IMG/VR virus record: IMGVR_UViG_3300027741_000200
Coordinates: 1-29,710 of that record
Source: a virus
DNA: 29,710 nt
Direction: 5' to 3' (one strand)
Shown: positions 738-27,993 of the stretch, one piece after another
How the letters are laid out: each line of letters begins with the position of its first letter
Numbering within the stretch: position 1 is the first letter of the stretch
Notes under the pieces: generated by a model
The model's database searches: none
Seen by the model: only the letters and a program-made list of their open reading frames with translations
What the model was told of the DNA's origin: nothing
Program-made: the position numbers and the translations under genes

Positions 738-740
738 AGC

Positions 741-10386: not shown

Positions 10387-10389
10387 GGG

Positions 10390-10619: not shown

Positions 10620-10625
10620 ATAGGT

Positions 10626-10653: not shown

Positions 10654-10668
10654 GATATTTCTTCAGTT

Positions 10669-11915: not shown

Positions 11916-11922
11916 ATTACAC
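11916..11922 (-). promoter_or_regulatory. Late-type promoter box, minus strand
   Basis: GTGTAAT on the minus strand, 8 bases before the ATG at 11907. Together with 11934-11940 it forms the inverted pair ATTACAC-N11-GTGTAAT serving two divergent genes. Confidence 0.7.
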
Positions 11923-11933
11923 CATATTAACTA

Positions 11934-11940
11934 GTGTAAT
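11934..11940 (+). promoter_or_regulatory. Late-type promoter box, plus strand
   Basis: GTGTAAT, 9 bases before the ATG at 11950. No TTGACA-like element lies at the expected -35 distance. Confidence 0.7.
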
Positions 11941-11949
11941 CTACATTAT

Positions 11950-12183
11950 ATGAAACACAATATCAAATTATTAGCTTTAACAATATTATTAGGATCTTTA
12001 TATTACCTTATTAGTCAGACCAATATCTTAAAATCAAACAAAAACAAACCAAATGAGCCAATCCAAAATAATATACAATACATTGATAATAATTTACCAA
12101 AAATTACCACGGCCAAACCTTTATATTCTGTGCGCGAGCCCAATTTTTTAGGATTAGGTGGCAATTATAAATCAAAAAATTGA
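11950..12183 (+). CDS. Small membrane-anchored protein (77 aa)
   Basis: 77 residues: a basic start, a hydrophobic segment at residues 6-22 (KLLALTILLGSLYYLI) and a polar, Asn/Lys-rich tail. This is an N-terminal signal anchor with the rest probably outside the membrane. No family is recognised. It is the first gene after a late-type box; the next gene starts 4 bases after its stop, so they likely act together at the membrane. Confidence 0.65.
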   Translation: MKHNIKLLALTILLGSLYYLISQTNILKSNKNKPNEPIQNNIQYIDNNLPKITTAKPLYSVREPNFLGLGGNYKSKN

Positions 12184-12187
12184 ACTT

Positions 12188-13171
12188 ATGTTTAAATACT
12201 TATTAGGCTTGTCAGCTTTATTATTAGCAGGATGCGGGGCTTTCTTTTCTGTGAAAGGTATAGGTTTACTATTCTCTGGTAGCTTTATAGCATCAATAAT
12301 TATGGCAAGCAGCTTAGAGTTTGGAAAAATAATGGCAACTAGCTTTTTATATCGTTATTGGCAAAAAATTAATAATATTATTAGATCATATCTATTAGCG
12401 GCGATTATTGTATTGATGGCAATTACTAGTTTAGGTATATTTGGATTTTTAAGTCAAGCCTTTTACTCAACTAAAAGCAATATAGATGGTATAGAATCCC
12501 AAGTAGTTTTATTAGAGAATAAAAAACAATCATTAAATACTCAAATAGTTTCAAATAACGAAAGAATTAAGACTTTAACAGACACAAGAAAGAACCAAGA
12601 ATCAAATTTAACAAAAGCTCTAGATCAATCTACCACAACTACAATTACAAAATCTGGAGGTTTATTTAGTAGCGATACTCAAGAAAAAATAGTAGATAAA
12701 AAATCAGTAGAATTAAAATCTAAAACTTTAGATAGTATGCAAACTGGCATATCATCATTAGAATCTAATATAGAAAAAATTAATAATATTAATAATACTT
12801 TATTAGCTGAAATTAATGGTATTGACAATTCTATTATTTCTTTAAAACAACAAATCACAAAATCAGATATAGGAACTTATAAATTTATAGCAGAAGCTTT
12901 TAACGTAAAAATAGAAACAGTAGTTAAATGGTTTATACTTATAATTGTTTGTGTTTTTGATCCATTAGCGGTTTCACTTTTATTAGCTTATAACATAACA
13001 TCTAATAAAAAAGAAGATATAGAAATAAAACCAAAAATACAAGAAAAAGAAAATTTAGATATACAAACTTCTGCAGGTCAAGAGATAAAAACAGAAGAAA
13101 AGGATGAATCTAAAGAGCATATAATAGAAAAAATTTATAAGAATTTTAATTATTGCAACAGAAGAGGCTAG
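12188..13171 (+). CDS. Membrane protein with long coiled coil (DUF4407-like layout)
   Basis: 327 residues from the ATG at 12188; a GTG at 12158 would overlap the upstream gene. Hydrophobic segments lie at about 3-23, 28-45 and 65-88. A long polar, heptad-rich helix follows (about 95-225, with ENKKQSLNTQIVSNNERIKTL and similar), then a last membrane segment near 243-265 (WFILIIVCVFDPLAVSLLLAY) and a charged tail. This TM - coiled coil - TM layout with a DPLAV motif resembles DUF4407-type proteins and membrane proteins of large marine phages, by recall only. A sensor or structural role at the host membrane is inference. Confidence 0.68.
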   Translation: MFKYLLGLSALLLAGCGAFFSVKGIGLLFSGSFIASIIMASSLEFGKIMATSFLYRYWQKINNIIRSYLLAAIIVLMAITSLGIFGFLSQAFYSTKSNIDGIESQVVLLENKKQSLNTQIVSNNERIKTLTDTRKNQESNLTKALDQSTTTTITKSGGLFSSDTQEKIVDKKSVELKSKTLDSMQTGISSLESNIEKINNINNTLLAEINGIDNSIISLKQQITKSDIGTYKFIAEAFNVKIETVVKWFILIIVCVFDPLAVSLLLAYNITSNKKEDIEIKPKIQEKENLDIQTSAGQEIKTEEKDESKEHIIEKIYKNFNYCNRRG

Positions 13172-13172
13172 G

Positions 13173-13179
13173 GTGTAAT
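13173..13179 (+). promoter_or_regulatory. Late-type promoter box
   Basis: GTGTAAT, 7 bases before the ATG at 13187. Confidence 0.65.
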
Positions 13180-13186
13180 TAATTAT

Positions 13187-13240
13187 ATGCGCACATTCAA
13201 TGGACTTCAAATTTTTACTGATCAGTTGAAGGATCATTAG
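13187..13240 (+). pseudogene. Truncated tail-fibre N-terminal module (17 aa)
   Basis: ATG plus 16 codons reading MRTFNGLQIFTDQLKDH, then TAG. The first 11 residues are identical to the starts of the genes at 13255 and 15626, but the bases differ mainly at third positions, so it is an old copy. It has its own late-type box, and its stop codon contributes the first base of the box of the next gene. It is either a remnant left by recombination or a translated leader peptide. Confidence 0.6.
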
Positions 13241-13246
13241 TGTAAT
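13240..13246 (+). promoter_or_regulatory. Late-type promoter box
   Basis: GTGTAAT, 8 bases before the ATG at 13255; overlaps the stop of the 17-codon frame. Confidence 0.7.
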
Positions 13247-13254
13247 CATTTAAA

Positions 13255-13318
13255 ATGCGTACATTTAATGGATTACAAATTTTTACACAGCAACTGACTA
13301 ATTCTGGTCAATTAGATT
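13255..13318 (+). repeat. 64-base direct repeat, copy A (tail-fibre N-terminus)
   Basis: Matches 15626-15689 at 63 of 64 positions; similarity ends abruptly afterwards. It encodes MRTFNGLQIFTQQLTNxGQLD. Confidence 0.9.
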
Positions 13319-13542
13319 CTCGATATGTAACTTTAAATACAGATCAAACTATAACTGGACAAAAAACTCTAAAAAATAATTTAATTTTTAATCCAAATTA
13401 TGTACCTTCTACGCCTAATTCTCCAGGATATAGTGGACAAATAGCTTTTAATAGAGATTATATTTTTATTTGTGTTAGTGGAAATGGAATGAATGGAGAT
13501 TGGAGAGCAACTTCAATTGCAACAAATTGGGTTTTAAATTAA
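13255..13542 (+). CDS. Short tail-fibre-type protein (95 aa)
   Basis: 95 residues. The N-terminal MRTFNGLQIFTQQLTNSGQLDSRYV module is followed by TLNTDQTITGQKTL, a stretch typical of phage tail-fibre shafts. The end (GYSGQIAFNRDYIFICV...GDWRATSIATNW) resembles GQKGTITFDKNYVYYCY...WSRARLAGW in the protein at 16065. Both look like caps of fibre subunits. It is followed after 1 base by the gene at 13544, so one transcript is likely. Confidence 0.72.
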   Translation: MRTFNGLQIFTQQLTNSGQLDSRYVTLNTDQTITGQKTLKNNLIFNPNYVPSTPNSPGYSGQIAFNRDYIFICVSGNGMNGDWRATSIATNWVLN

Positions 13543-13543
13543 T

Positions 13544-15268
13544 ATGCCAACAAATAATATATACAATCAAGTTTTAAGTCTCCAATCAATTCCTAATGTA
13601 GGCTTTAGTTATATTAATGCTAATCAAGGAATTACAATATCTAGCGGTCAACAATTTTTTATTGATAATGTTTATACTGGTTTTTTTCCACCAGTACCAG
13701 CAGGTTCTACAGATAAAAATAAATATAGAAAACAAAAATGGTTAAGTATTGGTTTAGAAGGAAATTCTTTTAGAAGATATATAAATGAAAATACCGGTTT
13801 ACAAGGTATTCCTTCTGGGCTAGAACCTGGAAATTTTGTTTATTTCACTATCGAACCAAAAAGTAGTCTTTTGGAGTCTGGATTAAATACAGATTCAAAT
13901 AATGCAAGATACATATCATCTCTGAGAGCAAAACCTTATATGGTTATTGAAAATGATGGAAATAGACCAAACAGTTACGAAAAAACGCCATCAAATCTTT
14001 TCACTGGAGTTTCTGGAAATAATAATTTTGTAGTATTTAATCCTCAAAGTAGATACAAAAATTTAGCATTGCAGTCAGTAAGATTTCATCCAGTCATTGG
14101 CAATGGCCATACTGAATATAATTTATGGAGTGGTGTACCAATAACTGTACAACCAAAAAATCACCACTTAGAAACATTTATTAAACTTAATATAAAAAGT
14201 GGAGCAAATATAAATTATGGAAATAGTACAAAAAATTTATCTTTTGCAGGACAATTTCAACAAATTGCTAGTGGAGATGTATTAATAGTAAGCGGATCTT
14301 CCTATTCAGAAGCAAATGGAATGTATGTATATAAAAGTAGCAATAATTATATTAATGAAAATAATTATAGAATATATAATAGTGGAAATACCAATAGATG
14401 GGTTTTAGCTCAACCAAAAAATACAGGAGTTAGTTATACAATATCTCCAGATTCAATTAATTTTAATAGTATATACAAAACAACATCAGTAACATCATAT
14501 GCATATACTCATAAAATTTATGCAAATCCAAAACGTCAAGACATAAATCCTTATTATGCATATAATTATTTTAACTGGACAGGAGTGACTGACAATTCTT
14601 CTATAAGAGTCAGTCAAGGTTGCACAGATGCTTCTATATATCCTTATTACTCTTCCATAGGCTTATTGTATTCTAATAATAGCTCATGGAATGGTTTTAA
14701 TACTACCACAAATAAACCCACTGGAGCATATATTACTAGTAAAAATTCAATTTCATCATTACCAATTTCAAAAATTAATCAATATTCTAAATTTACAATA
14801 AATAGTTATAATTGGTCTCCAATTGCGAATGGAGTTAATCCAAATATAAAATTATACTATCCATATATTATATTTGATAATCAAGGATTAGATGTTTTTC
14901 CATATACATACTCTACTACAATGCCAAACGAATTAATAATCAAAGAAAAAGTTAATTTTAAAAGACCATTATCTCCAAACCTTCATCAAGGTAAAAAAGT
15001 TAATATGAAATTTAACTATGAAAATGATACTAGGACCGTTCAAGAGCAATTAGTAATTAGAAATTTCTATCCAGTATTAGAAAAAATTTATAGTGGATAT
15101 AGTAAGAATATAGAATTTTATGACGAAAGAGATAACGGCGCATATGATTCAAATCCATTTTATGTATTATCTGGAAAAGATTATAGTTTTGAACAAAATG
15201 AATTATTCATATATAAATCTAGACCAGATTTCAATAGTCCAACAAATCAAAGTGTAATAAAATGGTAA
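13544..15268 (+). CDS. Large tail/fibre-associated protein (574 aa)
   Basis: 574 residues, rich in Asn, Ser, Tyr and Gly, no membrane segment, almost no Cys; the composition of an extended beta-structured virion protein. Residues 1-80 (ISSGQQFFIDNVYTGFFPPVP...) are followed by many Tyr/Asn-rich repeat-like strands. No named family is recognised. It sits inside the fibre cluster and ends beside the inverted-repeat element at 15282. Codon use is strongly AT-biased. A fibre or baseplate role is inferred from position and composition. Confidence 0.65.
   Translation: MPTNNIYNQVLSLQSIPNVGFSYINANQGITISSGQQFFIDNVYTGFFPPVPAGSTDKNKYRKQKWLSIGLEGNSFRRYINENTGLQGIPSGLEPGNFVYFTIEPKSSLLESGLNTDSNNARYISSLRAKPYMVIENDGNRPNSYEKTPSNLFTGVSGNNNFVVFNPQSRYKNLALQSVRFHPVIGNGHTEYNLWSGVPITVQPKNHHLETFIKLNIKSGANINYGNSTKNLSFAGQFQQIASGDVLIVSGSSYSEANGMYVYKSSNNYINENNYRIYNSGNTNRWVLAQPKNTGVSYTISPDSINFNSIYKTTSVTSYAYTHKIYANPKRQDINPYYAYNYFNWTGVTDNSSIRVSQGCTDASIYPYYSSIGLLYSNNSSWNGFNTTTNKPTGAYITSKNSISSLPISKINQYSKFTINSYNWSPIANGVNPNIKLYYPYIIFDNQGLDVFPYTYSTTMPNELIIKEKVNFKRPLSPNLHQGKKVNMKFNYENDTRTVQEQLVIRNFYPVLEKIYSGYSKNIEFYDERDNGAYDSNPFYVLSGKDYSFEQNELFIYKSRPDFNSPTNQSVIKW
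15252..15258 (+). promoter_or_regulatory. Late-type box inside gene end, upstream of the inverted-repeat element
   Basis: GTGTAAT in the last codons of the 13544 gene. Predicted start would be near 15265, about 17 bases before the inverted repeat at 15282. It could drive a structured transcript or simply be coding sequence. Confidence 0.4.
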
Positions 15269-15281
15269 ATCAATTATACAG

Positions 15282-15432
15282 CTCTAGTAACGTGACAACT
15301 TGTTGGTCGCTCTCGGGTGGCCTTAAGAAAGTCAAGAGAATATTGGGGTTTATCGTAAAAAGTAAACCGCATTTTTTTCATGTGATTACTCTGGATGTGT
15401 GCGAACACAAAGAGGGGGTCACGTTACCAGAG
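15282..15432 (+). other. Foreign-looking 151-bp element closed by a 15-position inverted repeat
   Basis: GTAACGTGAC (15287-15296) pairs perfectly with GTCACGTTAC (15418-15427); CTCT/AGAG extends this past one mismatch. Inside are GGTTTA/TAAACC (15347-15352 with 15363-15368) and TGTGT-GCGA-ACACA (15396-15409, GNRA loop). G+C is about 44%, against under 30% in the flanking genes. A 59-codon frame (15262-15441) runs across it but uses codons unlike the neighbours and would overlap the preceding gene; it may be chance. A structured RNA or a small mobile element with terminal inverted repeats are both possible. Confidence 0.65.
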
Positions 15433-15445
15433 GGACTATAAAATT

Positions 15446-15616
15446 ATGAACACTAAAATAGATTTAAAATACATAAACTTGGATGGTAAACTTATAAAAG
15501 TTGAAGAATCTAACTTAAATTTTGATAATAAAAAAATAGCCGTTTTTGAAAGCGGAATTTACATTAACCCAAGCAATTCTAATTTTTCGTTAAATATAAC
15601 TGGTGTATTGGTGTAA
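15446..15616 (+). CDS. Short fibre-type C-terminal module (56 aa)
   Basis: 56 residues from the ATG at 15446; an in-frame ATG at 15395 lies inside the inverted-repeat element and is rejected. The C-terminus NFSLNITGVLV matches NIALNITGLLV, the end of the protein at 17103. This suggests a stand-alone version of, or a remnant of, a fibre C-terminal domain. Its stop overlaps the late-type box of the next gene, the same arrangement as at 18027. Confidence 0.55.
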   Translation: MNTKIDLKYINLDGKLIKVEESNLNFDNKKIAVFESGIYINPSNSNFSLNITGVLV

Positions 15617-15618
15617 AT
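15611..15618 (+). promoter_or_regulatory. Late-type promoter box (variant)
   Basis: GTGTAAAT, 7 bases before the ATG at 15626, overlapping the stop of the previous frame. Confidence 0.55.
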
Positions 15619-15625
15619 ATATGGT

Positions 15626-15689
15626 ATGCGTACATTTAATGGATTACAAATTTTTACACAGCAACTGACTAATACTGGTCAATTAGATT
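15626..15689 (+). repeat. 64-base direct repeat, copy B (tail-fibre N-terminus)
   Basis: Matches 13255-13318 with one mismatch; a likely site for homologous recombination that would delete or swap the 2.3 kb between them. Confidence 0.9.
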
Positions 15690-16063
15690 TAAGGTATCCT
15701 CGTATAACTGGAAATGATCAAGGCGCTAATTTAATCTTAGGTGATAATATTCAATCTAATTACAATTTCTATTCAGACACAAATTTTAATGTAACGAATT
15801 ATATAAATATATTTTATTGCACTGGAACAAATGGTTCTTATACAGCGTCCTTACCAGATATAACTGATAAAAAAACAATTATTATAAAAAATTTAAAATC
15901 TACAAATCCATTAATTATTACTGGATACAATACTAATCAAATTTTTGATAATTCAGATTCTACTCTAGCACTTCCTGCCCCAGCTTCAATTGCTTTGGTT
16001 GGTGTAATTAATAATAATTATACTGGATGGGTATGTTTGGAATCTACAGCAGGAATTTCATAA
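15626..16063 (+). CDS. Tail-fibre-type protein (145 aa)
   Basis: 145 residues. It has the MRTFNGLQIFTQQLTNTGQLDLRY module, then beta-rich sequence. The end (TASLPDITDKKTIIIKNL...IALVGVINNNYTGWVCLE) is the kind of domain often found near the end of phage fibres ('LP......G..I.IKN......I'), recalled rather than searched. It is followed after 1 base by the LamG-like gene at 16065. Probably one subunit of a fibre or spike. Confidence 0.7.
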   Translation: MRTFNGLQIFTQQLTNTGQLDLRYPRITGNDQGANLILGDNIQSNYNFYSDTNFNVTNYINIFYCTGTNGSYTASLPDITDKKTIIIKNLKSTNPLIITGYNTNQIFDNSDSTLALPAPASIALVGVINNNYTGWVCLESTAGIS

Positions 16064-16064
16064 T

Positions 16065-17099
16065 ATGGCAACATTAAATACAATATATTATCTAAATTCT
16101 GGAAAACAATTATATGTAAATAATGATACAAATCAATTTGTTATTTCTGGTTATCAACTCAGTCTAGATCCTAATTTAAATGCAAATATTTCATTAGTAA
16201 ATCCTCCAAATTTACCAGATTCATTAGGACAAAAAGGAACAATTACATTTGATAAAAATTATGTTTATTATTGTTACGCAGATAATAATTGGTCAAGAGC
16301 AAGATTAGCTGGATGGACAGTAGATTCTACAGTATCTCCAATTGGTATTACAAATCCAAATAATTGGTGGTATTTTACATTAAATTCAGATCCAGTATTT
16401 GGAAATGATTATTTTAGTAGCAATGGAAATGTTACATTTAACTCAAGTGGAGTAAACACTAGCGGAACAAATAATAATGGATTATTTTGTTATAGAACAT
16501 TAGCTGTTCCTGGTTGGTCAAAAGCCATGATGTACTATGGACAACCAGAAGGTCTTTATCCTAATAGATTTTCTACAAGTTTCGAAACAAAAAGAGTTAA
16601 TTCTAGTGGATTTTTATTAGGTTCAAAATATGGTCAACTTAATTTTCATTTCGAATTTAGTGGAAATTATTTAGTCTTTAATATGCCAAAGAGTGCTGGT
16701 GGTGGTAATCCAGTCACTGGACAATGGCATAAAATTCCATCTATTTCACAATTTAATAATAGTAGCTATTATCAAGTTGTAGCTACGTTTGATCCAAGAA
16801 ATGATTCTCTTGCTAAATTTTACGTTAATGGAGTTTTACAAGGAAGTGCAAATTATCATTATACTACAGTATCTTTATATAATGGTGGATTTTCATTTAA
16901 TACAATTCCTCAAGCACAAGGTTTTGGAATTGGAGGAACTCCTCTTGGAAATATAAACGGTGCTCAACCTAATACTTTAACAGAAAATAATAAAGCAATT
17001 GTTAGAAATTTAGGATTTTGGTATGAATACGTTTTAAATCAAACAGAAATTACCGCTCTATATAATGGAGGCACTTTTAGAAAATATCCATTTGCATAA
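16065..17099 (+). CDS. LamG/concanavalin A-like adhesin (344 aa)
   Basis: 344 residues. Residues 1-85 repeat the fibre-cap pattern (LGQKGTITFDKNYVYYCYADNNWSRARL). Residues 110-340 look like a LamG/ConA-like jelly-roll: GQWHKIPS..., YYQVVATFDPRNDSLAKFYVNGVLQGS (the characteristic 'w.hva.tydg....lYvnG' strand pair) and an end with NLGFWYEYVLNQTEITALYNGG, which is the usual LamG closing motif. Such domains bind carbohydrate or protein ligands on the host surface. It lies within a tightly spaced late operon. Confidence 0.78.
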   Translation: MATLNTIYYLNSGKQLYVNNDTNQFVISGYQLSLDPNLNANISLVNPPNLPDSLGQKGTITFDKNYVYYCYADNNWSRARLAGWTVDSTVSPIGITNPNNWWYFTLNSDPVFGNDYFSSNGNVTFNSSGVNTSGTNNNGLFCYRTLAVPGWSKAMMYYGQPEGLYPNRFSTSFETKRVNSSGFLLGSKYGQLNFHFEFSGNYLVFNMPKSAGGGNPVTGQWHKIPSISQFNNSSYYQVVATFDPRNDSLAKFYVNGVLQGSANYHYTTVSLYNGGFSFNTIPQAQGFGIGGTPLGNINGAQPNTLTENNKAIVRNLGFWYEYVLNQTEITALYNGGTFRKYPFA

Positions 17100-17102
17100 T
17101 AT

Positions 17103-18032
17103 ATGATAACAAATAACGAAAATTTATATGGAGTTTATAATGCAGATGGAACTTTAAGTAGTTTCCGAGAGAATAATTCAAATACAGCTTCAAGAGCAGG
17201 ACAAGCACAAACAATTGGTGGAGGAGAAAATAATACAGTATCTGGAAGTTATTCTACTGTAGTTGGAGGATACAATAATCAAATCATAAATAGTATTTCA
17301 TCCACAATAATTGCAGGACAAAATGGTGTTATTAAAAATCAAAATGGTGCATCATTAATCGCTGATGGAGATAATAGAAATCATTATGCGGATCAATCTA
17401 ACGCATTAACTATAGATTTTGCAAACGGAATATATTTAAAAAATAAATTTAGCCCACCAACTCCAACTGGATACTATGGAGTTTATAATAAAATTGATAC
17501 TTATCCTAATTTAGTTATAGGATCATATCTAGCTGGTCCTCAATATGAAAATATTCCTAGCGCAAAAAATTATTATCCATATACAGGAACATCAATAAAG
17601 ATACAAACTAATAATTGGTTGAAAACTGATGGTTACAGCGCAGAGAGAACAGATTCTATCTCATATATAACATTAGGATCAAATGGAATAAAATTGGCTG
17701 GAGTAAACGCAGGAGTTCAAGGTGACAATTACAATCAGTCAGGCATATACAGTACAGCATCTTTAATTTTAAATCAAGATATAACATTAGAAACAGCCAA
17801 AGACGGAAATTCTATATCTTTAATTTCAGATAATGATATCAGTTTACAAGGATATGGAGTATTTATTGGTAAAGGTACGAATAGATTAAATTTAAGCGAT
17901 GGATTTTATATTGGTTCAACATATATTCCAGGTGGAGCATATATAACTGGCGAAAGAATATTACTTAATAACTTATCTATTATAGAAAGAACAGAAAATA
18001 TAGCTTTAAATATAACAGGACTATTAGTGTAA
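17103..18032 (+). CDS. Fibre/adhesin with YadA-head-like repeats (309 aa)
   Basis: 309 residues. Residues 30-75 contain GQAQTIGGGENNTVSGSYST and VVGGYNNQI, the left-handed beta-roll repeats of trimeric autotransporter (YadA-type) heads, known also in phage fibres. A second stretch (SLIADGDNRNHYADQSNALT) continues the pattern. The C-terminus ALNITGLLV recurs in the 56-aa product at 15446. It probably forms a trimeric receptor-binding tip. The stop TAA forms part of the next gene's GTGTAAT box. Confidence 0.75.
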   Translation: MITNNENLYGVYNADGTLSSFRENNSNTASRAGQAQTIGGGENNTVSGSYSTVVGGYNNQIINSISSTIIAGQNGVIKNQNGASLIADGDNRNHYADQSNALTIDFANGIYLKNKFSPPTPTGYYGVYNKIDTYPNLVIGSYLAGPQYENIPSAKNYYPYTGTSIKIQTNNWLKTDGYSAERTDSISYITLGSNGIKLAGVNAGVQGDNYNQSGIYSTASLILNQDITLETAKDGNSISLISDNDISLQGYGVFIGKGTNRLNLSDGFYIGSTYIPGGAYITGERILLNNLSIIERTENIALNITGLLV

Positions 18033-18033
18033 T
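18027..18033 (+). promoter_or_regulatory. Late-type promoter box
   Basis: GTGTAAT, 8 bases before the ATG at 18042; overlaps the stop codon of the fibre gene. Confidence 0.68.
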
Positions 18034-18041
18034 AATATTAA

Positions 18042-18686
18042 ATGTCTTTTTTGAACGCAAATATTCCTCCGATAGAATGTTATGTTCGTGGAAACTATAT
18101 GAGAAATCAAGAAGATAGTTTTGATAAAAAATATAAATGTTTAATTTTTGGTGTTACAAGTCTTCCTAGCCAAGCTCCGCTTTTTAATTTTCTTATGGAA
18201 GATGGTGGAATTTGGTGGCATGCTCCTATTAGTGCATTTTGTCATAAAGAAAATGCTCCAACTATGGAATTAACAGAGTTAGAGCTTTGGGATAGTTTTA
18301 GTTACCATATAGCCGTAACAACTTTTTATTTACTAGAAAATAAAGTACTTAAATATACAGGAAGAACTGGCAACGAATATATGGGAACTTATTTATTTAC
18401 TCTTGATTGGGCTCATAGCGATTACAACGAATTAAATTTTGGATTTAGTCAAAAACCAGATCAACACAAAGCTGGTCATATTATTAAACTTGATAATGGT
18501 AATTTTGCTATTCAACCAAATAACAGAATTAAAGTCTTTGATCCAAGTTTCGCTACAAAACCAAACGAATTGGTTTTGGAAAGAAAAATAAATAGTCATA
18601 TTTATACTGCTGAAAATAGTCCAAAATGGATTACTGAAGACAGTAATAATTATAACTACAACATAAAGGAAATAAAAAGTGAATAA
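18042..18686 (+). CDS. Conserved-looking phage protein of unknown function (214 aa)
   Basis: 214 residues. The N-terminus MSFLNANIPPIECYVRGNYM and the central DGGIWWHAPISAFC, plus ELTELELWDSFSYH, look like a well-conserved globular phage protein that I recall from large marine phages as hypothetical. No function is known. It overlaps the next gene by 8 bases. Its position just after the fibre genes and before PhoH suggests late expression. Confidence 0.7.
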   Translation: MSFLNANIPPIECYVRGNYMRNQEDSFDKKYKCLIFGVTSLPSQAPLFNFLMEDGGIWWHAPISAFCHKENAPTMELTELELWDSFSYHIAVTTFYLLENKVLKYTGRTGNEYMGTYLFTLDWAHSDYNELNFGFSQKPDQHKAGHIIKLDNGNFAIQPNNRIKVFDPSFATKPNELVLERKINSHIYTAENSPKWITEDSNNYNYNIKEIKSE

Positions 18687-18963
18687 AACAATAAACATAA
18701 CAGAAAGAAACATTTTTGAAGGAGAAAAATCTAATCCTCAAAACTGTGCAATCGCCAGAGCAATCAAAAAAAATATGAAAGGTAAAGTTACTAGCATTTC
18801 AGTACTACCTTCTCATGTTAACATGAAAATTAAAAATAAAGAATATACTGCAGTTATGCCGAAAATTGGAGCAAACTTTATTAAAAGATTTGACGAAGGC
18901 CAAGCTGTTAATTCATTTTCTTTAGATTTAAAATTTAAAGAAGGTTATTCTTTAATTAATTAA
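18679..18963 (+). CDS. Hypothetical protein (94 aa), GTG start
   Basis: 94 residues, basic. GTG at 18679 is preferred because AAGGAAAT lies about 9 bases upstream and the frame overlaps the previous gene in coupled fashion. The body (NCAIARAIKKNMKGKVTSISV...NKEYTAVMP) looks like a compact alpha/beta domain. No family is recognised. Confidence 0.68.
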   Translation: MNKTINITERNIFEGEKSNPQNCAIARAIKKNMKGKVTSISVLPSHVNMKIKNKEYTAVMPKIGANFIKRFDEGQAVNSFSLDLKFKEGYSLIN

Positions 18964-19007
18964 GTTTAAACTTTATTAAAATTAATTTAAAAATTAATAC
19001 AATTGGG

Positions 19008-19014
19008 GTGTAAT
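19008..19014 (+). promoter_or_regulatory. Late-type promoter box upstream of phoH-like gene
   Basis: GTGTAAT preceded by GG, 17 bases before the ATG at 19032. Confidence 0.55.
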
Positions 19015-19031
19015 TATTTGTAGTAAGTTCA

Positions 19032-19751: not shown

Positions 19752-19762
19752 TCCAACTAATT
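19746..19762. terminator. Weak hairpin between convergent phoH and portal genes
   Basis: ATTAGT-CCA-ACTAAT (19747-19761), flanked by AT-rich sequence, between two converging genes. It has no clean T run, so a terminator role is only suggested. Confidence 0.35.
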
Positions 19763-19770
19763 AAATTATA

Positions 19771-21669
19771 TTATTCAGATTTTTTGCTGTGATACAATAA
19801 ACTAGCTAAATAACTATCGACTTGATGCTCGGAAGCAATTGATTGAATTTCATTTACTTGATTTAAATTTTGATCAAATGGTTTTTCAATATAATCTTGT
19901 ATTTTTGCTTTCCACTGACTAGAATCTTCATTTGCTATAATTAATTCTGTAATTTTTTCTGCCATGTCTTTTTGTGCATTACTTAATTTCTTGATTTCAA
20001 ATTTTTTTCTTAAAGAACCTTTGACTTCTTCTTCAAGATCTTGAACAGCTAAAATATTTTCTCTTATCTTAAGAACAGAAAAGGCTTTTGAACTACCAAT
20101 TGGTTTTACATTTTTTGTAGACTGAGGAGTACCAGTTGAACCCATAGGTCTTCCAGCTTGAGCACCACCACCAATAAGTGGTTGATAAAATCCTTGATCT
20201 TTTAATTCTCTAAATTTTTGTTGAGATTGTGCAGATTCTTCTGGAGTAGGCAATCTTCCAGTTTCTATAGCTTGAATTCCTTCGTCAGCAGTTAATACGC
20301 CGAGCTCAACCAATCTGTTGTATATTCTAGAATATTGTACATCATCTTTAAGACTAATATCTTCAAATACTGGAACTGGAAAATTCTTAAATCCTAAATC
20401 TTTACTAATTCTTCTTATTTCTGGTATTAAAAATTCATTTAAGAAAACTTCTCTTGCTTGCTTTAGTCTTTCCATAAACACTTGCACTTTAATACTTGTA
20501 TTAGCAAATTTTTCACTGCCAATAAGAATATTATTTAATCCAATTTGAATATCTCTATCAACTACTTCATATTTCTCTGGTCCGATTAAACTTCCGATAT
20601 CAGGAATTACGAATTGAGCTTTGGTTGTATAATCTGCGATTAATACTCTACCAACACTTTGATTTTCAAATAATTGCTGCATGGATTGTAAATTTTTCTG
20701 ATTGATTCCACCTTTATCAGGCTCGTTACCCATAGTAACTAAAAGAATAGCCTGTTGAGTTGTTCTTGTAACTGCCATATCCATTTTTTTCATTTCTAAT
20801 TTCCAGTTAATATCATCTAATACTGGAAAACCCATTGGAATTGAGAGTGGTTCGTAATCTTGTTTTTTATAAAAAACTGCAGCCATCTTTTTAGGATCTA
20901 ATGGAACTAAAATATAAGAGTTACCTTTATTTTTTATCTTTTCTTTTATATCGGCTGGTAGTCCTTCGTAAACTTCTATATCTTCGTCAGTTTTTGGATC
21001 TCTAAGTTTTTCTAATTCGTAACTACTTAATAGTTTATAATATATATTATAAGAATAATTTACTCCACCAGCAACATAAACATCTGCTGGATTAATTATA
21101 GTATATCTTACAGGAATTTTAATTGATCCGTCTTTAGCTAAAGCTTTTGAACCAAATACTTGAGTGATTTTTAATACTTGCTCAGAATCCAAAGAAGTAT
21201 CAAATCTGTAAGTAAATACATTGCCACTTCTATAGTATTCTCTAAAAAATTGATCTTGAAAACTTGTTAAATTAATTTTTTTAAAATAAGCATCGAAAAA
21301 TTCTCTTGATTTTTGACTTCCACCAGTTAAATAAATAGAACTAGCAGAGAATTCTGTCATTAAATCTATTGTGTTTCTGAAAATTGCAACATTATAATAA
21401 GCTTTTTGACAAAGTATAACAGCATCTCTTACATCTAGGGTAGATAAATTATTAATATAATTAGAATATCTAAATGGAATAATTCCAGTATCAATATTTG
21501 TAAATCTATTAGTTCTTTCAATCGTACTAGCAGCATTTCTTCTAACTGGTGAACTTCCTCTTGCTTCTGAAGCTGTTAATTTTCTTTCTGAACCATAAAC
21601 CATTAATGGTGATATTTGCTCTTCTGTAGATGCTTTAATTTCTTGTATTTTTTTGGTATTTTTCTTCAT
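19771..21669 (-). CDS. Probable portal protein (632 aa)
   Basis: 632 residues, no membrane segment. It directly follows the terminase gene in the same direction, the most common place for a portal. Its size and predicted layout (alpha/beta wing with DVRDAVILCQKAYYNVAIFRNTIDLM near residues 75-105, a long helical crown, and a Gln/Lys-rich C-terminal extension) fit phage portals. Recalled portal-like features are the IIPF..SNY start and the RLKQAREVFLNEFLIPEIRRI helix (about residues 402-422). It would form the dodecameric DNA channel at the capsid vertex. Specific family membership was not verified. Confidence 0.75.
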   Translation of the reverse strand: MKKNTKKIQEIKASTEEQISPLMVYGSERKLTASEARGSSPVRRNAASTIERTNRFTNIDTGIIPFRYSNYINNLSTLDVRDAVILCQKAYYNVAIFRNTIDLMTEFSASSIYLTGGSQKSREFFDAYFKKINLTSFQDQFFREYYRSGNVFTYRFDTSLDSEQVLKITQVFGSKALAKDGSIKIPVRYTIINPADVYVAGGVNYSYNIYYKLLSSYELEKLRDPKTDEDIEVYEGLPADIKEKIKNKGNSYILVPLDPKKMAAVFYKKQDYEPLSIPMGFPVLDDINWKLEMKKMDMAVTRTTQQAILLVTMGNEPDKGGINQKNLQSMQQLFENQSVGRVLIADYTTKAQFVIPDIGSLIGPEKYEVVDRDIQIGLNNILIGSEKFANTSIKVQVFMERLKQAREVFLNEFLIPEIRRISKDLGFKNFPVPVFEDISLKDDVQYSRIYNRLVELGVLTADEGIQAIETGRLPTPEESAQSQQKFRELKDQGFYQPLIGGGAQAGRPMGSTGTPQSTKNVKPIGSSKAFSVLKIRENILAVQDLEEEVKGSLRKKFEIKKLSNAQKDMAEKITELIIANEDSSQWKAKIQDYIEKPFDQNLNQVNEIQSIASEHQVDSYLASLLYHSKKSE

Positions 21670-21680
21670 TTTACTTAAAT

Positions 21681-21687
21681 ATTACAC
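21681..21687 (-). promoter_or_regulatory. Late-type promoter box for the portal gene
   Basis: GTGTAAT on the minus strand, 11 bases before the portal ATG at 21669 and directly after the terminase stop. This gives the portal its own promoter. Confidence 0.6.
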
Positions 21688-23532
21688 TTAATTAATCATT
21701 ATAGGCATAAAAGTGCTTGATATATCCTCGGTTGGAGCGTTCATTATATCATAATAGCACTTTAAACCCCAATTTACTAATAAAAGTGCAGAATAATTAT
21801 CTTTTCTTGCTTTATTCGCAGAAGAACTTCTTTTTAAATGTTGAGGCAAGTCAAATGATTGGGTTCCTCTGGCTGTAGATGAATGCTCTACAAGAGTACA
21901 TTGTTTTTTAGTTTGATATATAAAATCATCTTGATTTTCAATAAAATCAAGAGTAGACCAATCCTTTTTTTCTTCTGTTTTCATTAGATCTATTGGTATA
22001 TTCTGGCTAAATTGAGATTCAAAGAAGCTATCATTAGCACAAGTTTTACTAGCAAACCATATTTTCTTATAATCAATCGAAGCCTGTAAGTGCTCATTAG
22101 CTTTACGAATAAAGTTACTTGTAAAGACTTGATTAAAAGCTATTTTCTTTGATTCTAGATTATAACTATTTCTAATCTTACGGACTTCTTGATCATAATC
22201 TTGTCCTTCTAAATCAGAATTAAATTCAAAACTATTTATATTTAAATTATTACTCTTGAATAACTCAGATTGATTGCAAGCAGAAAGAAATACATCTGCT
22301 CCAGCATTATCCAAAATCATAAATACAATATTAAAATTCGTCATGATATAATATAAGTAGTTAACATGATTTTTTAAATTTCCTAATCCAGCGTATGTAT
22401 GAACTAATGTACCAGTTTTAGTTTCTTCATCAATCTCCATTACAGCCATAGCAAAATAATCTGCATTAGGACTATCGCTCATATTAGGATCAATACCAAG
22501 AATATATTTCTTTCCAGAAACACCTTTCATTAAAGTATGAGGAGACTGACCGTTTGGAATAGTGCATTCTTCCATCTTTTTTGCGCTAAAATAACTATCA
22601 CTACCATCAATAAATCTTGCGCAGTATTCTCTTAAAAAACTACTATGACTTGAGCCTCCATTCTGAGCTTCTTCAATAATTGTTTTATCTATCATCTCTA
22701 ATGGTAAAGCTTCATAGCTTAATTGAGATACAAAATAAGATGCTTCTGTGTTTTCTTTTGAATAAATTTTCTCTATCCATTCATTGTACGTTTTATAAAG
22801 ATTCTCAAATGTATAACTTGCAGAAGAAAGAGCTATCATTTTACTATTATTTTCAAAAACCATTCTGTCTTCCTCTTTTATTGCTCCCTCTCGGATTAAA
22901 GTATCTTCCATTTCTCTAATCTCCATTCGTTCTTTCATGTTTTGTGGAGCAACCAAGAATGGCATTAATACAGTTTTAACAATATCCTCCGACAATAGAA
23001 GAAACTCATCAAGAACTAGTACATTAGCACGAAATCCTCGAATCTTTTCTCCGCTTAAAGGAATAGCTACGATACTTCCACCATTAATTGACCATTCGTA
23101 TTGATCATTTCTTTTACTTTTTGAACCAAAAGCTTGTTGAAGAAGTTCTGCGCCTTTGCTATTTACAATTTTTTCTAGATTATTAAATATGAATCTAGCT
23201 GTTCTGAAAGTTGGTCCTGCGATTAGAATTTTAGTATTAGGTTCAAAAACGCATTGAAGAAAACAAAACACGCTCGCGATAAAACTCTTGCCACAACCTC
23301 GACCAAATACGCACATACTAAAGTTTCTATTTAATAAACCTTTAAGATGAATTTCTTGATACGGAGCTAATTTGATACCACTTATAAGCTCAGTAGTAAA
23401 GCCTAAATTGGCTCTTAAAAATTTAGCAAGAGATATTTTTGCATCTTTATCGTTAAGAACGCCTTTAAGATTCATTAATTCTGTATTAATATCTGGATAA
23501 TCTTTTTTATATTTATCTGGAGAGTATATCAT
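21688..23532 (-). CDS. terL: Terminase large subunit
   Basis: 614 residues with both TerL domains. ATPase: Walker A FGRGCGKS at 76-83 and Walker B VLVLDE at 171-176. Nuclease (RNase H fold): ILGIDPN with the first Asp at 348 and FMILDNAGAD with Asp 408; a later acidic residue should complete the metal site. It packages DNA through the portal and cuts the concatemer. The start overlaps the stop of the upstream nuclease gene by 4 bases (ATGA type), so the two are translationally coupled. Confidence 0.95.
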   Translation of the reverse strand: MIYSPDKYKKDYPDINTELMNLKGVLNDKDAKISLAKFLRANLGFTTELISGIKLAPYQEIHLKGLLNRNFSMCVFGRGCGKSFIASVFCFLQCVFEPNTKILIAGPTFRTARFIFNNLEKIVNSKGAELLQQAFGSKSKRNDQYEWSINGGSIVAIPLSGEKIRGFRANVLVLDEFLLLSEDIVKTVLMPFLVAPQNMKERMEIREMEDTLIREGAIKEEDRMVFENNSKMIALSSASYTFENLYKTYNEWIEKIYSKENTEASYFVSQLSYEALPLEMIDKTIIEEAQNGGSSHSSFLREYCARFIDGSDSYFSAKKMEECTIPNGQSPHTLMKGVSGKKYILGIDPNMSDSPNADYFAMAVMEIDEETKTGTLVHTYAGLGNLKNHVNYLYYIMTNFNIVFMILDNAGADVFLSACNQSELFKSNNLNINSFEFNSDLEGQDYDQEVRKIRNSYNLESKKIAFNQVFTSNFIRKANEHLQASIDYKKIWFASKTCANDSFFESQFSQNIPIDLMKTEEKKDWSTLDFIENQDDFIYQTKKQCTLVEHSSTARGTQSFDLPQHLKRSSSANKARKDNYSALLLVNWGLKCYYDIMNAPTEDISSTFMPIMIN

Positions 23533-24476
23533 AATAGTTTTAGGTCATAAGCTAATTGAAGATCTACTTGTTTATAAAAACAATTTGATGTAAAAATAGA
23601 CTCAATTACCCTTGTCATCTCTCCTCTTCCATCTACAAAAAGAAATTGTAGATTATCATAGTTCTGAAGTAACTCTCGAACATTATGAAATATATATTCT
23701 GGAGTAGCTTTAATTTTTTTACTAATATGCGGAAGGTACTGAAAGCTTAATGCGTTAGCCAACTTTTCTTCTACTACAACAATTAAATATGCTCCACTTT
23801 TCTTTGCTCGATCTATTTCGTTTTTAAATCTATCAAAGTTTTTAACGCTTAATGTACTGATAAAATCACTTAAACTTTTTCTTTCTATAAAACATTTACA
23901 ATTATCATTACTGCAAGAGTAATCTCCGAAAGGTAATGTTTTAATTTCAAACTTTGTATCAAATTTTAACCAACTCTGTTCTCTTGTATCAACATAGATA
24001 ATTGATTTTTTATTTAATTTATTTTTAAATTGATCAGTTATGTTATTTGGGTGAATAAATTTATTCTCTAAGCCGAGACTTGAGCAAACATCATAATAAT
24101 CATTAAATATTTTATTATAAAAAACAATCGACGGGGCCATAATTGTTCTTAATTCTACTTGTGAAGGACTATAAGTTAAATTTTTCTCATGTTTTCTTTT
24201 GGATAATAATTGCTTGCAATATTCTTGAGCTTTTTCAACTGATTGTTGCTTAAGCCATTTTTTCATATTATTTTTATCATTGAAATCACTATTCAAATAT
24301 TGCTCTTTAGTTTTGAAATTAATAAGCTCGTTAGTTAGAAGATCTCTTCGTTCAAAATATGTTTGATAATATTTAACTTTATTCAAACCATAACCTTTAA
24401 GTGACATATGTAAAGCTTTATCACTTGCAAATTCTTTTCCATCTACTTTACATATAACTGACATAAATTTATCCAT
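23529..24476 (-). CDS. ERCC4-type nuclease with possible N-terminal zinc finger
   Basis: 315 residues. The C-terminal part contains the ERCC4/XPF nuclease signature: IYVDTRE (161-166), then GDY (184-186) and IERKSLSDF (197-205), i.e. GDxn-ERKxxxD, followed by an RFKNEIDRAK helix. XPF-family nucleases cut branched or structured DNA. The N-terminus (ICKVDGKEF...ALHMSLKGYGL) suggests a small Cys/His zinc-binding unit, incomplete by eye. It sits between the 24469-25560 gene and terL and overlaps both by a few bases. A role in resolving branched replicative DNA before packaging is inference. Confidence 0.82.
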   Translation of the reverse strand: MDKFMSVICKVDGKEFASDKALHMSLKGYGLNKVKYYQTYFERRDLLTNELINFKTKEQYLNSDFNDKNNMKKWLKQQSVEKAQEYCKQLLSKRKHEKNLTYSPSQVELRTIMAPSIVFYNKIFNDYYDVCSSLGLENKFIHPNNITDQFKNKLNKKSIIYVDTREQSWLKFDTKFEIKTLPFGDYSCSNDNCKCFIERKSLSDFISTLSVKNFDRFKNEIDRAKKSGAYLIVVVEEKLANALSFQYLPHISKKIKATPEYIFHNVRELLQNYDNLQFLFVDGRGEMTRVIESIFTSNCFYKQVDLQLAYDLKLL

Positions 24477-25560
24477 TTAAAATATCATCTTCTGATATTC
24501 CAAGTATCCTAGCTTTTATTTCATCCATAGTTCCAAGTCTTTCGATCTCTTTCTTAATACTATTTTTTCTTAGCTCTGCTATTTTTAATAATTTTTGTCT
24601 AGACTCTTCTTGTTTCCACATTTCTACAAGATTTAGAATACTTGCATTTTCCTTAACTTGTTTGCTAAGTCTTTCGCTTCTTTTGACTTTAAGATCTTGT
24701 AATAATTTTTGTTGGCGATTTACACAATCATTGTATTCTTTTCTAGCTGTACTACTAGCTTCTACTAAAGTCATTGGAATTTTACCATCTTCTTGAGTTG
24801 CAAGATCAATTTGATTTTGAAGAGTTGTAATTGTTTGTTGAATACTTGAAGATATGACTACTTCTGTTGCAAGAACAATATATTGATCAACTTCTTCTTG
24901 AGTTAAATCACTTTTATCGTAAGTATATCTTACAAAACTACTTTCAAAAAGATCCCTATCATTCTCATCATCATAAAGATTAATTTGATGGGTAAATCTA
25001 TATGTATTCATATAACCAATTAAAGAGTTCACCTCTTTCTTTTGCCTTGGAGTAATCTTTTCTTTATCTATTCCATCTAATATATATTTATTGATTTTAA
25101 CAACCATTCTTTCTTCGCTTCGTGGAGCTTTATAAGTTTCTGTAGCAATATTTTCATTTGTATCATTAAGATATTTAATATTACTAGGTATAGTTTTCAT
25201 ATAATCAAGAATACTTCTTGTTTCTTGAGAAAGATTAGTTAATGATTCATTTTTAAATAAAATTTTAGCTATTTCAATTCCAGTCATAGTTGCACAATTA
25301 TTACTAATGTATTCTTTTTGATCTTCTGTTAATTCTATAAGACCTTTAGCTTGGTATTCGTGACTTTTCCTTGGTTTAATTTGTCTTGAAGCTAGAAAAC
25401 TTTTTACAGCTTTTCCTTCTTTGCTTCTTCCGTCTAAATCATCACGATCAAAAGCTAATTTAACTAACTCAGTTAAAGCTGGTGGATTATCTGGTCTACG
25501 ATTCCACTCTTCGAGTAGTTTTAATTGCTGCTCTTCAGTTAAAGACAATTCATCATTCAT
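24469..25560 (-). CDS. Unrecognised helical protein; candidate small terminase or DNA-binding protein (363 aa)
   Basis: 363 residues, almost entirely helical and charged. Residues 85-110 (LTEDQKEYISNNCATMTGIEIAKILF) resemble a helix-turn-helix of the kind seen in small terminases. The C-terminal half (residues 225-340) is a long coiled-coil-like stretch (QTITTLQNQIDLATQ... RQKLLQDLKVKRSERL). Its place two genes before terL, in the same operon with overlapping starts, would suit a small terminase, but the size is large for one. The function is unconfirmed. Confidence 0.6.
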   Translation of the reverse strand: MNDELSLTEEQQLKLLEEWNRRPDNPPALTELVKLAFDRDDLDGRSKEGKAVKSFLASRQIKPRKSHEYQAKGLIELTEDQKEYISNNCATMTGIEIAKILFKNESLTNLSQETRSILDYMKTIPSNIKYLNDTNENIATETYKAPRSEERMVVKINKYILDGIDKEKITPRQKKEVNSLIGYMNTYRFTHQINLYDDENDRDLFESSFVRYTYDKSDLTQEEVDQYIVLATEVVISSSIQQTITTLQNQIDLATQEDGKIPMTLVEASSTARKEYNDCVNRQQKLLQDLKVKRSERLSKQVKENASILNLVEMWKQEESRQKLLKIAELRKNSIKKEIERLGTMDEIKARILGISEDDILNG

Positions 25561-26243
25561 ACATCTAAATCTATATCTCCATTATATATAAGTTTTTTAA
25601 CTTTTATCATTATGGATTTCTTTAAGTTCTTAACTTGCTTGTATCCAATTTTTCTATTTTTTTCTGAAGTTTTGTAACCCATATGTTTAGCAGCATCTTC
25701 TTCAGATTTATGTTCAATGTAAACTAATTTATAAAATTTTGCTTCTAGAGGTTTTAATGTATTCAACATTTTCTTATGTATAACTTCTGCGTTCTTTTCT
25801 ATATCTATAGAATCATATACCATATCATGAACTTCTTGAGTATGATTTTCAAGACTAACAGGTAGCTTTGTATCATATGCATTTTTTTTACTTTTTGTCC
25901 ATCTTGCGTAAAGTGGACAGTTATTACATTGTTTGCCATATATGTTACATAGATCTTCGCCCTCTGCAGCAGAACACTTCAAGCAAGGTCTAGAAAAATT
26001 ACCATAATTATTTCTTATTAAATTTTTAATTTGATTACTGATTATTCTATTTACCCAAGGAGCAAGCTTTTTATCTTGATCGTATAAGTGCCACTTTTTA
26101 TATATATGTATTCTTAATATTTGAGCTACATCACTAAAGTCAAGCCACGATAAAGAAGTCAAACTCCATTTATGTTTTCTTTTAAAAATCTCAGCATTAA
26201 TCTCATCGATTTTTGACTCAAAATTAGATTTCTTTGCTGGCAT
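25557..26243 (-). CDS. RNA polymerase sigma-like factor (late-transcription candidate)
   Basis: 228 residues. Residues 35-80 fit sigma region 2: DVAQILRIHIYKKWHLYDQD, then PWVNRIISNQIKNLIRN, the usual polymerase-binding/-10 recognition helix pair. Residues 87-109 hold five Cys (87, 90, 99, 106, 109), probably a zinc-binding insert. Residues 155-215 resemble region 4 (LKPLEAKFYKLVYIEHKSEEDAAKHMGY) with a helix-turn-helix. T4 gp55 is a known precedent for a small phage sigma. It overlaps the next gene by 4 bases. It is the best candidate to read the GTGTAAT boxes (inference). Confidence 0.78.
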   Translation of the reverse strand: MPAKKSNFESKIDEINAEIFKRKHKWSLTSLSWLDFSDVAQILRIHIYKKWHLYDQDKKLAPWVNRIISNQIKNLIRNNYGNFSRPCLKCSAAEGEDLCNIYGKQCNNCPLYARWTKSKKNAYDTKLPVSLENHTQEVHDMVYDSIDIEKNAEVIHKKMLNTLKPLEAKFYKLVYIEHKSEEDAAKHMGYKTSEKNRKIGYKQVKNLKKSIMIKVKKLIYNGDIDLDV

Positions 26244-26244
26244 T

Positions 26245-26682
26245 TTATTTTCTTTTATTCTTAGGTCTTATTGCTCCAGCTTCTTTTGAGAAATTATCAA
26301 AGAACTCTTGAGCGTCTTTTTTTGACACTTTCTTTCCTTTTATTTTTTCTTTTTTAATAGATCCAAAAGATGGATTAATTGGACTATCCATCATTTTATT
26401 GAATTTAATGCCTTGGTATTTTTGAACTTCACAATCTACATTTAATTCATTTATATTAGGGACATGATTAACATCATCATGGTCAAAATCGTCATCATTA
26501 TCAATTTCAATAGTATTATCTAAAGATATATTTGGTTTTATTTTTCTTTCTATCGTCTGCTTAACTGGTGGTTTAACCCCAGCAAAAGATGTATCAAAGT
26601 TATGCCCACACCCACTACAAAATTTAGGCTTAACAGAAGAGAATTCGGTTCCAGAACCACAATTTATGCAATATTTTTTCAT
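26245..26682 (-). CDS. Zinc-ribbon protein (145 aa)
   Basis: 145 residues. The N-terminus is a classical short zinc ribbon, C5-x2-C8 and C22-x2-C25 (YCINCG...FCSGCG). The rest is low-complexity, acidic in the middle (IEIDNDDDFDHDD) and Lys-rich near the end. It is the first gene of the minus-strand packaging operon and lies 1 base before the sigma-like gene. A partner role in late transcription, as T4 gp33 accompanies gp55, is only a positional guess. Confidence 0.72.
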   Translation of the reverse strand: MKKYCINCGSGTEFSSVKPKFCSGCGHNFDTSFAGVKPPVKQTIERKIKPNISLDNTIEIDNDDDFDHDDVNHVPNINELNVDCEVQKYQGIKFNKMMDSPINPSFGSIKKEKIKGKKVSKKDAQEFFDNFSKEAGAIRPKNKRK

Positions 26683-26687
26683 AATAT

Positions 26688-26694
26688 ATTATAC
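26688..26694 (-). promoter_or_regulatory. Promoter box of the packaging operon (variant)
   Basis: GTATAAT on the minus strand, 5 bases before the ATG at 26682. It differs at one base from the late box; no clear -35 element is visible. Confidence 0.5.
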
Positions 26695-26730
26695 AGAGAA
26701 AATTACTTTTATTCTATAAATTCATTTATA

Positions 26731-26738
26731 GTGTAAAT
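26731..26738 (+). promoter_or_regulatory. Late-type promoter box (variant)
   Basis: GTGTAAAT, 17 bases before the ATG at 26756; an AAGG lies between them as a possible ribosome site. Confidence 0.5.
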
Positions 26739-26755
26739 TTATTAAGGTAAAAGGT

Positions 26756-27961
26756 ATGCCAAGGAATAGAATAATATATAATACACAAGGACTATATTTT
26801 GCTCCTTATTCTGGAGAACAAAATGCATCTACGGATTATTATTTAAATGGTTATCAAATACTCAAAAGATTAGAAAAAATACAAAATTTCAATTATTCAA
26901 TCGATCAATCTCGAATAGGTCTTATAGGTTTTGGTGTTAATAAAAGTATATTTAGAAATGATTTAAATTCTCCAACTGTAAATTTTAGTTTTTCGTATAT
27001 TCCAGATGGAGTTACAAATGAAAATAGATTAAATTTTAACGTTAATCATTTTTCTGGATTTAATGCCCCAATGTTTTCTGGATTATGCCAAGATAACTCA
27101 ATTACAGACGAAAAAGATTTTTATCTTGTGATAAATAAAAATGAAAATGATTTATATGGTAACTATACTTTAACAAATCTAGATATAAATCCAACTACGG
27201 TTAATGATGTTATTGATCCAAATTCAAATAATTATGCAGTTTTAAATTTTCAAAATTGCTACTTAACAGATTATAATTTTAGGGTATCGGTTGACTCAAT
27301 ACCAATAGTAACTCAATCTTATGTTTCTGATAATATTAATTTTTATATAAGTGGCAGTGGAATACGTTATACAACACTAGATTTAAAATCTGGAATAAAT
27401 CAACCTCAAACTGATCAAATAATAATTCCGCAAGCTTTAAATTATTATCAAACTGGAATAAGTGGACAAAATATTCTCCTACCAGGAGATGCTAGTGTTA
27501 CTTTTTATACAAATAATACTACTGGAGTTTTATTTTACACAGATACAATTCAAAGTTTAGAATATTCATTAGCTTTTCAAAGAAATGCTTTAAGATCATT
27601 AAATTATAAATTTCCATTAGGAAGAAAATTATCATTTCCAGTCAATGGAAAATTAAGCACAAGCTTTATTGTAGAAGAAAATCTAAGTGGTTCATTTTTT
27701 GACACTTTAAATCGCGATGATGATTATAATGTTGTTGTTGATTTTAATACAAACAAATCTGGCGTTTACCCAACAAAATTAATTTTTAGTGGTTGTAAAT
27801 TTGATAATATTAGTTATGACTCTTCTATAGGTAAGAATAAAACAGCATCATTAAATTTTAATTTTGAACTGGATCCAACTTTTGGAAATAGAGGAATATT
27901 CGCTAGTGGAAATGTGTTATATGGTGTTTTGAATAATAGAAAGAAAGTATTGATATTTTAA
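26756..27961 (+). CDS. Virion protein, tail-tube-like (401 aa)
   Basis: 401 residues, beta-rich, no membrane segment. The patterns FNYSIDQSRIGLIGFG...NSPTVNFSFSYIPDGV (residues 45-85) and CYLTDYNFRVSVDSIPIVTQSYV (about 170-192) resemble the strand-loop layout of phage tail-tube proteins, where the 'L.SY.f.vs...iP...v.Y' strand occurs. A second half with similar motifs (TIQSLEYSLAFQRNALRSL, LIFSGCKFDNISYD) suggests a two-domain protein. A late-type box precedes it. The assignment is by recalled pattern only. Confidence 0.55.
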   Translation: MPRNRIIYNTQGLYFAPYSGEQNASTDYYLNGYQILKRLEKIQNFNYSIDQSRIGLIGFGVNKSIFRNDLNSPTVNFSFSYIPDGVTNENRLNFNVNHFSGFNAPMFSGLCQDNSITDEKDFYLVINKNENDLYGNYTLTNLDINPTTVNDVIDPNSNNYAVLNFQNCYLTDYNFRVSVDSIPIVTQSYVSDNINFYISGSGIRYTTLDLKSGINQPQTDQIIIPQALNYYQTGISGQNILLPGDASVTFYTNNTTGVLFYTDTIQSLEYSLAFQRNALRSLNYKFPLGRKLSFPVNGKLSTSFIVEENLSGSFFDTLNRDDDYNVVVDFNTNKSGVYPTKLIFSGCKFDNISYDSSIGKNKTASLNFNFELDPTFGNRGIFASGNVLYGVLNNRKKVLIF

Positions 27962-27981
27962 TTTTTAATACATATAATATA

Positions 27982-27988
27982 GTGTAAT
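27982..27988 (+). promoter_or_regulatory. Late-type promoter box of the lysis-type cluster
   Basis: GTGTAAT preceded by TATA, 5 bases before the ATG at 27994. Confidence 0.65.
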
Positions 27989-27993
27989 ATATT

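Follow-up and report, generated by a model that had tools for sequence, protein, structure and literature searches.

A stretch of 29,710 bases, the whole of one virus record and here called the window, is a fragment of the genome of an uncultured tailed phage. Its right part codes for a terminase large subunit and for portal-like, PhoH-like, ferredoxin-like and sigma-70-family proteins, and the heptamer GTGTAAT recurs in the window directly before start codons. Is this word a promoter of late genes and, if so, which factor reads it? The comparisons below point to an answer on both counts: GTGTAAT is very probably the switch for the late genes, those that build the particle, in a large family of bacterial viruses that has never been cultured, and sigma-T, a sigma-70-family protein of the phage, is its likely reader.

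GTGTAAT in the window

The original prediction had placed GTGTAAT 5–17 nt before the ATGs at 11907(-), 11950, 13187, 13255, 18042, 19032, 21669(-) and 27994, variants of the word before 15626 and 26756, and a further copy before a small accessory gene; all of these are present, both variants being GTGTAAA. The putative late boxes, listed with the terminase and portal-like genes, are:

4542..4548, minus strand: GTGTAAT, 7 nt before the ATG at 4534 of a 58-aa accessory ORF (4358-4534, minus)
11916..11922, minus strand: GTGTAAT, 8 nt before the ATG at 11907 of a 278-aa gene (minus); divergent pair with the box at 11934
11934..11940, plus strand: GTGTAAT, 9 nt before the ATG at 11950
13173..13179, plus strand: GTGTAAT, 7 nt before the ATG at 13187 of a 17-codon relic ORF
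13187..13240, plus strand: the 17-codon relic itself, MRTFNGLQIFTDQLKDH*, a partial copy of the N-terminus of the products of 13255 and 15626
13240..13246, plus strand: GTGTAAT, 8 nt before the ATG at 13255
15611..15617, plus strand: variant GTGTAAA, 8 nt before the ATG at 15626
18027..18033, plus strand: GTGTAAT, 8 nt before the ATG at 18042 (ferredoxin-like, phrog_3704)
19008..19014, plus strand: GTGTAAT, 17 nt before the ATG at 19032 (PhoH-like)
19771..21669, minus strand: portal-like protein, identified by weak tblastn similarity to the portal of the Bacillus phage Slash group and by its position after the terminase
21681..21687, minus strand: GTGTAAT, directly after the terminase stop codon and 11 nt before the ATG at 21669 (portal-like)
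21688..23532, minus strand: terminase large subunit
26731..26737, plus strand: variant GTGTAAA, 18 nt before the ATG at 26756, with a Shine-Dalgarno-like AAGG in between
27982..27988, plus strand: GTGTAAT, 5 nt before the ATG at 27994

As anticipated, the word should occur several times by chance in such a window (3.99 copies, sd 1.84, in dinucleotide shuffles), but 12 are found, a count reached by 0 of 100 shuffles. GTGTAAT lies within 31 nt upstream of 8 of the 34 starts, as against a mean of 0.26 for its 210 permutations; the next-best permutation, at 6 starts, detects these sites again through a shifted, overlapping match. No start is suitably positioned after the copies at 3410(-), 15252 and 16002. 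A placement before starts beyond chance is thus upheld, whereas the claim that these are starts of virion or packaging genes holds only in part, since the gene at 19032 is PhoH-like and that at 18042 is ferredoxin-like. The start at 13187 opens the relic ORF.

Several other features of the window deserve mention. The boxes at 11916-11940 stand back to back, 11 nt apart, before the divergent genes 11907(-) and 11950(+), and similar divergent pairs occur in the relatives G021 and G026. The N-terminal stretch MRTFNGLQIFT(Q/E)QLTNSGQLD.RY opens several proteins, each with a putative late box just upstream: starts of this type are seen in the window at 13187 (the relic), 13255 and 15626, and also in G001, G002, G004, G010 and G026. 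The G+C content falls from ~33-43% in positions 1-11500 to ~26-32% in the late region, 12000-28000. The left part also carries four tRNA genes (2128-3227), for Ile(tat), Met(cat), Leu(taa) and Arg(tct), and, at 4687-5523, a gene for an anti-restriction-type protein combining an ArdC-like N-terminal domain with a zincin-like metallopeptidase.

Conservation and placement of the box among relatives

Relatives of the terminase number 486 among viral contigs, some of which are 133.6 kb long; searches of bacterial and archaeal genomes for relatives, aimed at naming a host, recovered none. Cultured relatives show remote terminase or portal similarity only, e.g., Microcystis phage MaeS and Bacillus phage Slash, and the stretch of MaeS that we examined has ordinary Shine-Dalgarno words and no box before its starts.

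The site between the terminase and portal-like genes is conserved. In one set of loci, GTGTAA[AT] follows the terminase stop codon in 74 of 74 (61 with GTGTAAT, the rest with GTGTAAA), and in a wider set, with terminase identities of 50-100%, 117 of 128 unique sequences have it ahead of the portal-like gene; the flanks vary widely while the box stays constant. Most of the 11 remaining relatives have GTGTAAC or a differing sequence downstream of the terminase. For the clade whose portal gene follows GTGTAAC, the sites are too few to support a shift of the whole promoter set. Elsewhere, the box at 4542..4548 recurs in the related contig G031 as an identical 17-nt site including the ATG (GTGTAATATAAGTTATG).

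Motif discovery in the 32 nt upstream of genes, with starts in the related contigs taken from a home-made gene caller, ranks GTGTAAT first of all 7-mers, with 110 occurrences against 2.03 expected in the pooled contigs, an enrichment whose p-values overstate independence because the contigs are related. It also heads the individual rankings given for seven tight-group sequences, the window among them, and in the relative G022 (44% G+C) it comes second, level with the first-ranked word. Together with the shuffle and permutation controls, this ranking rules out a chance origin. For a large phage family known only from metagenomes, the transcription programme becomes legible: one word could mark the late genes in any contig, even in relatives at ~40-44% G+C.

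The box is distributed unevenly along the genome. In G001 it precedes 17 of the 52 genes of the first 54.7 kb (the late region), none of the 31 genes of the replication block, where the DNA polymerase and the DnaB-like helicase are encoded, and 2 of the 46 genes in the final third (Fisher p=2.6e-6, late region versus the other two regions pooled). Boxed genes of G026 include the tape measure gene and the first gene of a minor-tail run; the later genes of that run have no box, a pattern that suits boxes at the heads of operons. The G026 gene syntenic to window 26756 (50316-52100) is also boxed and matches the virion structural family phrog_19691. It is from this gene content that we infer late timing for the boxed genes.

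Candidate readers and a proposed late switch

Three genes upstream of the terminase lies the gene for sigma-T, in an operon with its own promoter-like site, listed here together with a plus-strand site of similar build before 27994:

25557..26243, minus strand: sigma-T, a sigma-70-family protein of 228 aa with region 2, a cysteine cluster and a weak region 4; the proposed box reader
26245..26682, minus strand: zinc-ribbon-like protein (145 aa), whose gene opens the sigma operon
26688..26716, minus strand: promoter-like site TAGAAT-N17-TATAAT at the head of the zinc-ribbon/sigma operon, distinct from the late boxes
27950..27978, plus strand: TTGATA-N17-TATAAT promoter-like site with 11/12 matches, in tandem with the late box at 27982

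Profile searches recover region 2 of sigma-T with Sigma70_r2 (E 1.3e-6; 28.5 bits against a Pfam cut-off of 24) and region 4 through a weak, below-cut-off match to Sigma70_r4_2 (E 0.015). An alignment of 91 sequences, in which relatives share 55-75% identity with the protein from the window, shows region 2 and the cysteine cluster to be highly conserved. The structure predicted from these 91 sequences is of moderate quality (pLDDT 76, pTM 0.37; an earlier model with 40 sequences was poorer, at pLDDT 65) and has a helical C-terminal domain. Foldseek places many sigma factors, both solved and viral, among its nearest structures, and these neighbors serve as supporting evidence only, because no E-value falls below 0.001. 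A search for a beta-prime RNA polymerase, with a control that worked, gave no match, and neither did one for a T7-type RNA polymerase, which matched no control genome either.

The original prediction, a late-type promoter that lacks a -35 element, is supported by the 7-mer ranking, the late-region bias, the conservation of the portal site, the absence of -35 conservation and the decoupling of the box from Shine-Dalgarno words (see below). We consider it probable that GTGTAAT and GTGTAAA are late promoters of this kind, read by a phage sigma factor, most likely sigma-T, to give near-leaderless mRNAs within a sigma cascade. GTGTAAT, with GTGTAAA tolerated, would then be the -10-type core at which the host RNA polymerase, carrying the phage sigma factor, opens the DNA. 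The predicted near-leaderless mRNAs and the sigma-factor genes are additions to what had been proposed before.

As genomes of the family carry two to three sigma-like genes, we infer that it is sigma-T that reads the box. Besides sigma-T there is sigma-2 (209 aa in G001, at L155:2820-3449, plus strand), encoded near the ribonucleotide reductase gene and with relatives in 28 loci, and, in some relatives (among the surveyed contigs G033-G048), a more canonical sigma-3. It is thus conceivable, if unlikely, that the late promoter is real but is read by sigma-2 or sigma-3, with sigma-T serving another class: both occur in the family, and G043-G048 have sigma-2 and boxes with no sigma-T on the contig. 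These contigs are, however, fragments, and sigma-T alone is common to the large contigs G033 and G037-G042, in which it is accompanied by sigma-3 (G040, G042) or by one shorter sigma (G037, G041). Sigma-T is also found in every large boxed contig tested that includes the terminase side; G005, with no sigma-T on the contig, is cut inside the terminase gene. Moreover, sigma-2 diverges faster than sigma-T (39% in L308 versus 54% for sigma-T on the same contig).

The anatomy of the box bears on whether the host sigma factor might suffice. After removal of duplicates, 106 unique contexts aligned on the box hold almost no information around -35 beyond A+T richness. Exact GTGTAAT is enriched 154-fold and GTGTAAA 23-fold (11 sites); other single mismatches are absent or single-copy, except for GTATAAT (4-fold), and both G positions are nearly invariant. 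As GTGTAAT resembles a -10 element (TGTAAT), it could be an altered or extended -10 of host type, recognised by the host sigma-70 together with an activator from the phage, or by a holoenzyme that has been remodelled. A precedent is Thermus phage P23-45, whose middle and late promoters belong to an extended -10 class served by the host sigma (PMC7403470). This we regard as very unlikely, given the near-invariant G positions, the absence of GTATAAT at 16-25 nt and its weak presence at 5-9 nt, and the ordinary TTGACA-N16-TATAAT sites in the same window. A phage sigma with such strict sequence demands and no -35 would form a new sigma/promoter pair, useful for testing minimal -10 recognition.

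These ordinary sites, which lie in the leftmost 12 kb, are accompanied by a second class. TTAGATT-N17-TATAAT precedes ATGs in 33 unique contexts, many of them orthologous, where permuted words average 0.74. The GTATAAT before 26682(-), earlier taken for a variant late box, turns out to belong here: it is part of the TAGAAT-N17-TATAAT site at 26688..26716, whose orthologs likewise have TATAAT with TTAGATT or TAGAAT 17 nt upstream. The statement that no TTGACA-like element accompanies the box is right in general but fails at the box at 27982, which has TTGATA-N17-TATAAT (27950-27978) directly upstream; in orthologs of 27994 the late box likewise stands in tandem with a TATAAT site of the TTGATA or TTAGATT type. 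Judged by these patterns, at least two promoter classes besides the putative late box operate in these genomes. The sigma-T gene would itself stand under TTAGATT-N17-TATAAT, and this separate class suggests a cascade in which early genes, transcribed with the host sigma, lead to sigma-T and sigma-T in turn to the late genes.

Box-to-start spacing offers a further view of the proposed switch. In 57 of the 106 contexts the distance from box to ATG is 7 or 8 nt, a sharp peak. Where the box is within 9 nt of the ATG, Shine-Dalgarno-like words occur at 6% of starts (shuffled 5%); where it is 15-40 nt away they occur at 72% (shuffled 11%), between box and ATG, although some such boxes, that of 19032 in the window among them, have none. 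Unboxed starts have a Shine-Dalgarno word in 22% of cases (shuffled 8%). This decoupling by distance fits a promoter with a predicted RNA start ~6-8 nt downstream of the box and argues against a translation signal. From the usual spacing of 7-8 nt and the missing Shine-Dalgarno words, we predict that most late mRNAs start at the AUG or 1-2 nt before it and are thus leaderless or nearly so, while boxes farther from the ATG would give a leader, mostly with a Shine-Dalgarno word. That the box is instead a translation-initiation signal replacing the Shine-Dalgarno word is hardly credible and we reject it: its close, fixed spacing to the ATG and the lack of Shine-Dalgarno words at those genes would suit such a signal, but the more distant boxes have these words in between, closely following genes inside runs are unboxed (median gap at unboxed genes 8 nt), and replication genes go without the box.

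Returning to the promoter model, an elaboration that we advance tentatively, at somewhat under even weight, has several phage sigma factors acting in sequence, sigma-2 and/or sigma-3 before sigma-T. The late switch would then alter the mode of translation as well, most late genes being expressed from leaderless mRNAs that start at one near-invariant box and other genes retaining Shine-Dalgarno leaders. Systematically leaderless late mRNAs would be a natural case bearing on which hosts can support these phages. Thermus phage P23-45 reportedly makes leaderless late mRNAs; T4 late mRNAs are not known to be predominantly leaderless.

Comparison with known phage promoter systems

The family shows two general marks of late promoters served by a phage sigma: a short conserved motif that keeps a constant position upstream of late genes and is missing from early and replication genes, and a phage-encoded sigma-70-family protein. 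A literature search for the word GTGTAAT gave matches which, among those listed, appear unrelated.

The closest parallel in design is the late system of T4, whose promoter has the consensus TATAAATA at -13 to -6 and is read by the sigma factor gp55 (PMC1524935). As in T4, a short, highly conserved -10-only element precedes virion genes, with a phage sigma as the reader in T4 (PMC1524935); unlike in T4, the word is GTGTAA(T/A) rather than TATAAATA, and other single mismatches are nearly absent. A tblastn search for relatives of sigma-T, gp55 included, returned no match at E<=0.01 in 50,697 phage records, a level at which remote homology is possible.

Phages phiEco32 and 7-11 likewise have a phage sigma with its own middle and late promoters, predicted from conserved intergenic motifs (PMC4331800). 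The Foldseek neighbors of sigma-T list the ECF sigma of Cronobacter phage vB_CsaP_GAP52, but no sequence similarity of sigma-T to the phiEco32/7-11 sigma was found by tblastn in the phage records. The late promoters of P23-45 manage with less -35 contact using the host sigma (PMC7403470), and the middle and late promoters of that phage share with the box a lack of -35 dependence; they differ in relying on the host sigma with gp39 and no phage sigma, and in their extended -10 sequence (PMC7403470). AR9 similarly has a short late consensus, AACA-N6-TA/G, before most of its late genes, but there the reader is a phage multisubunit RNA polymerase and the leaders are long, at 26-491 nt (PMC5312081).
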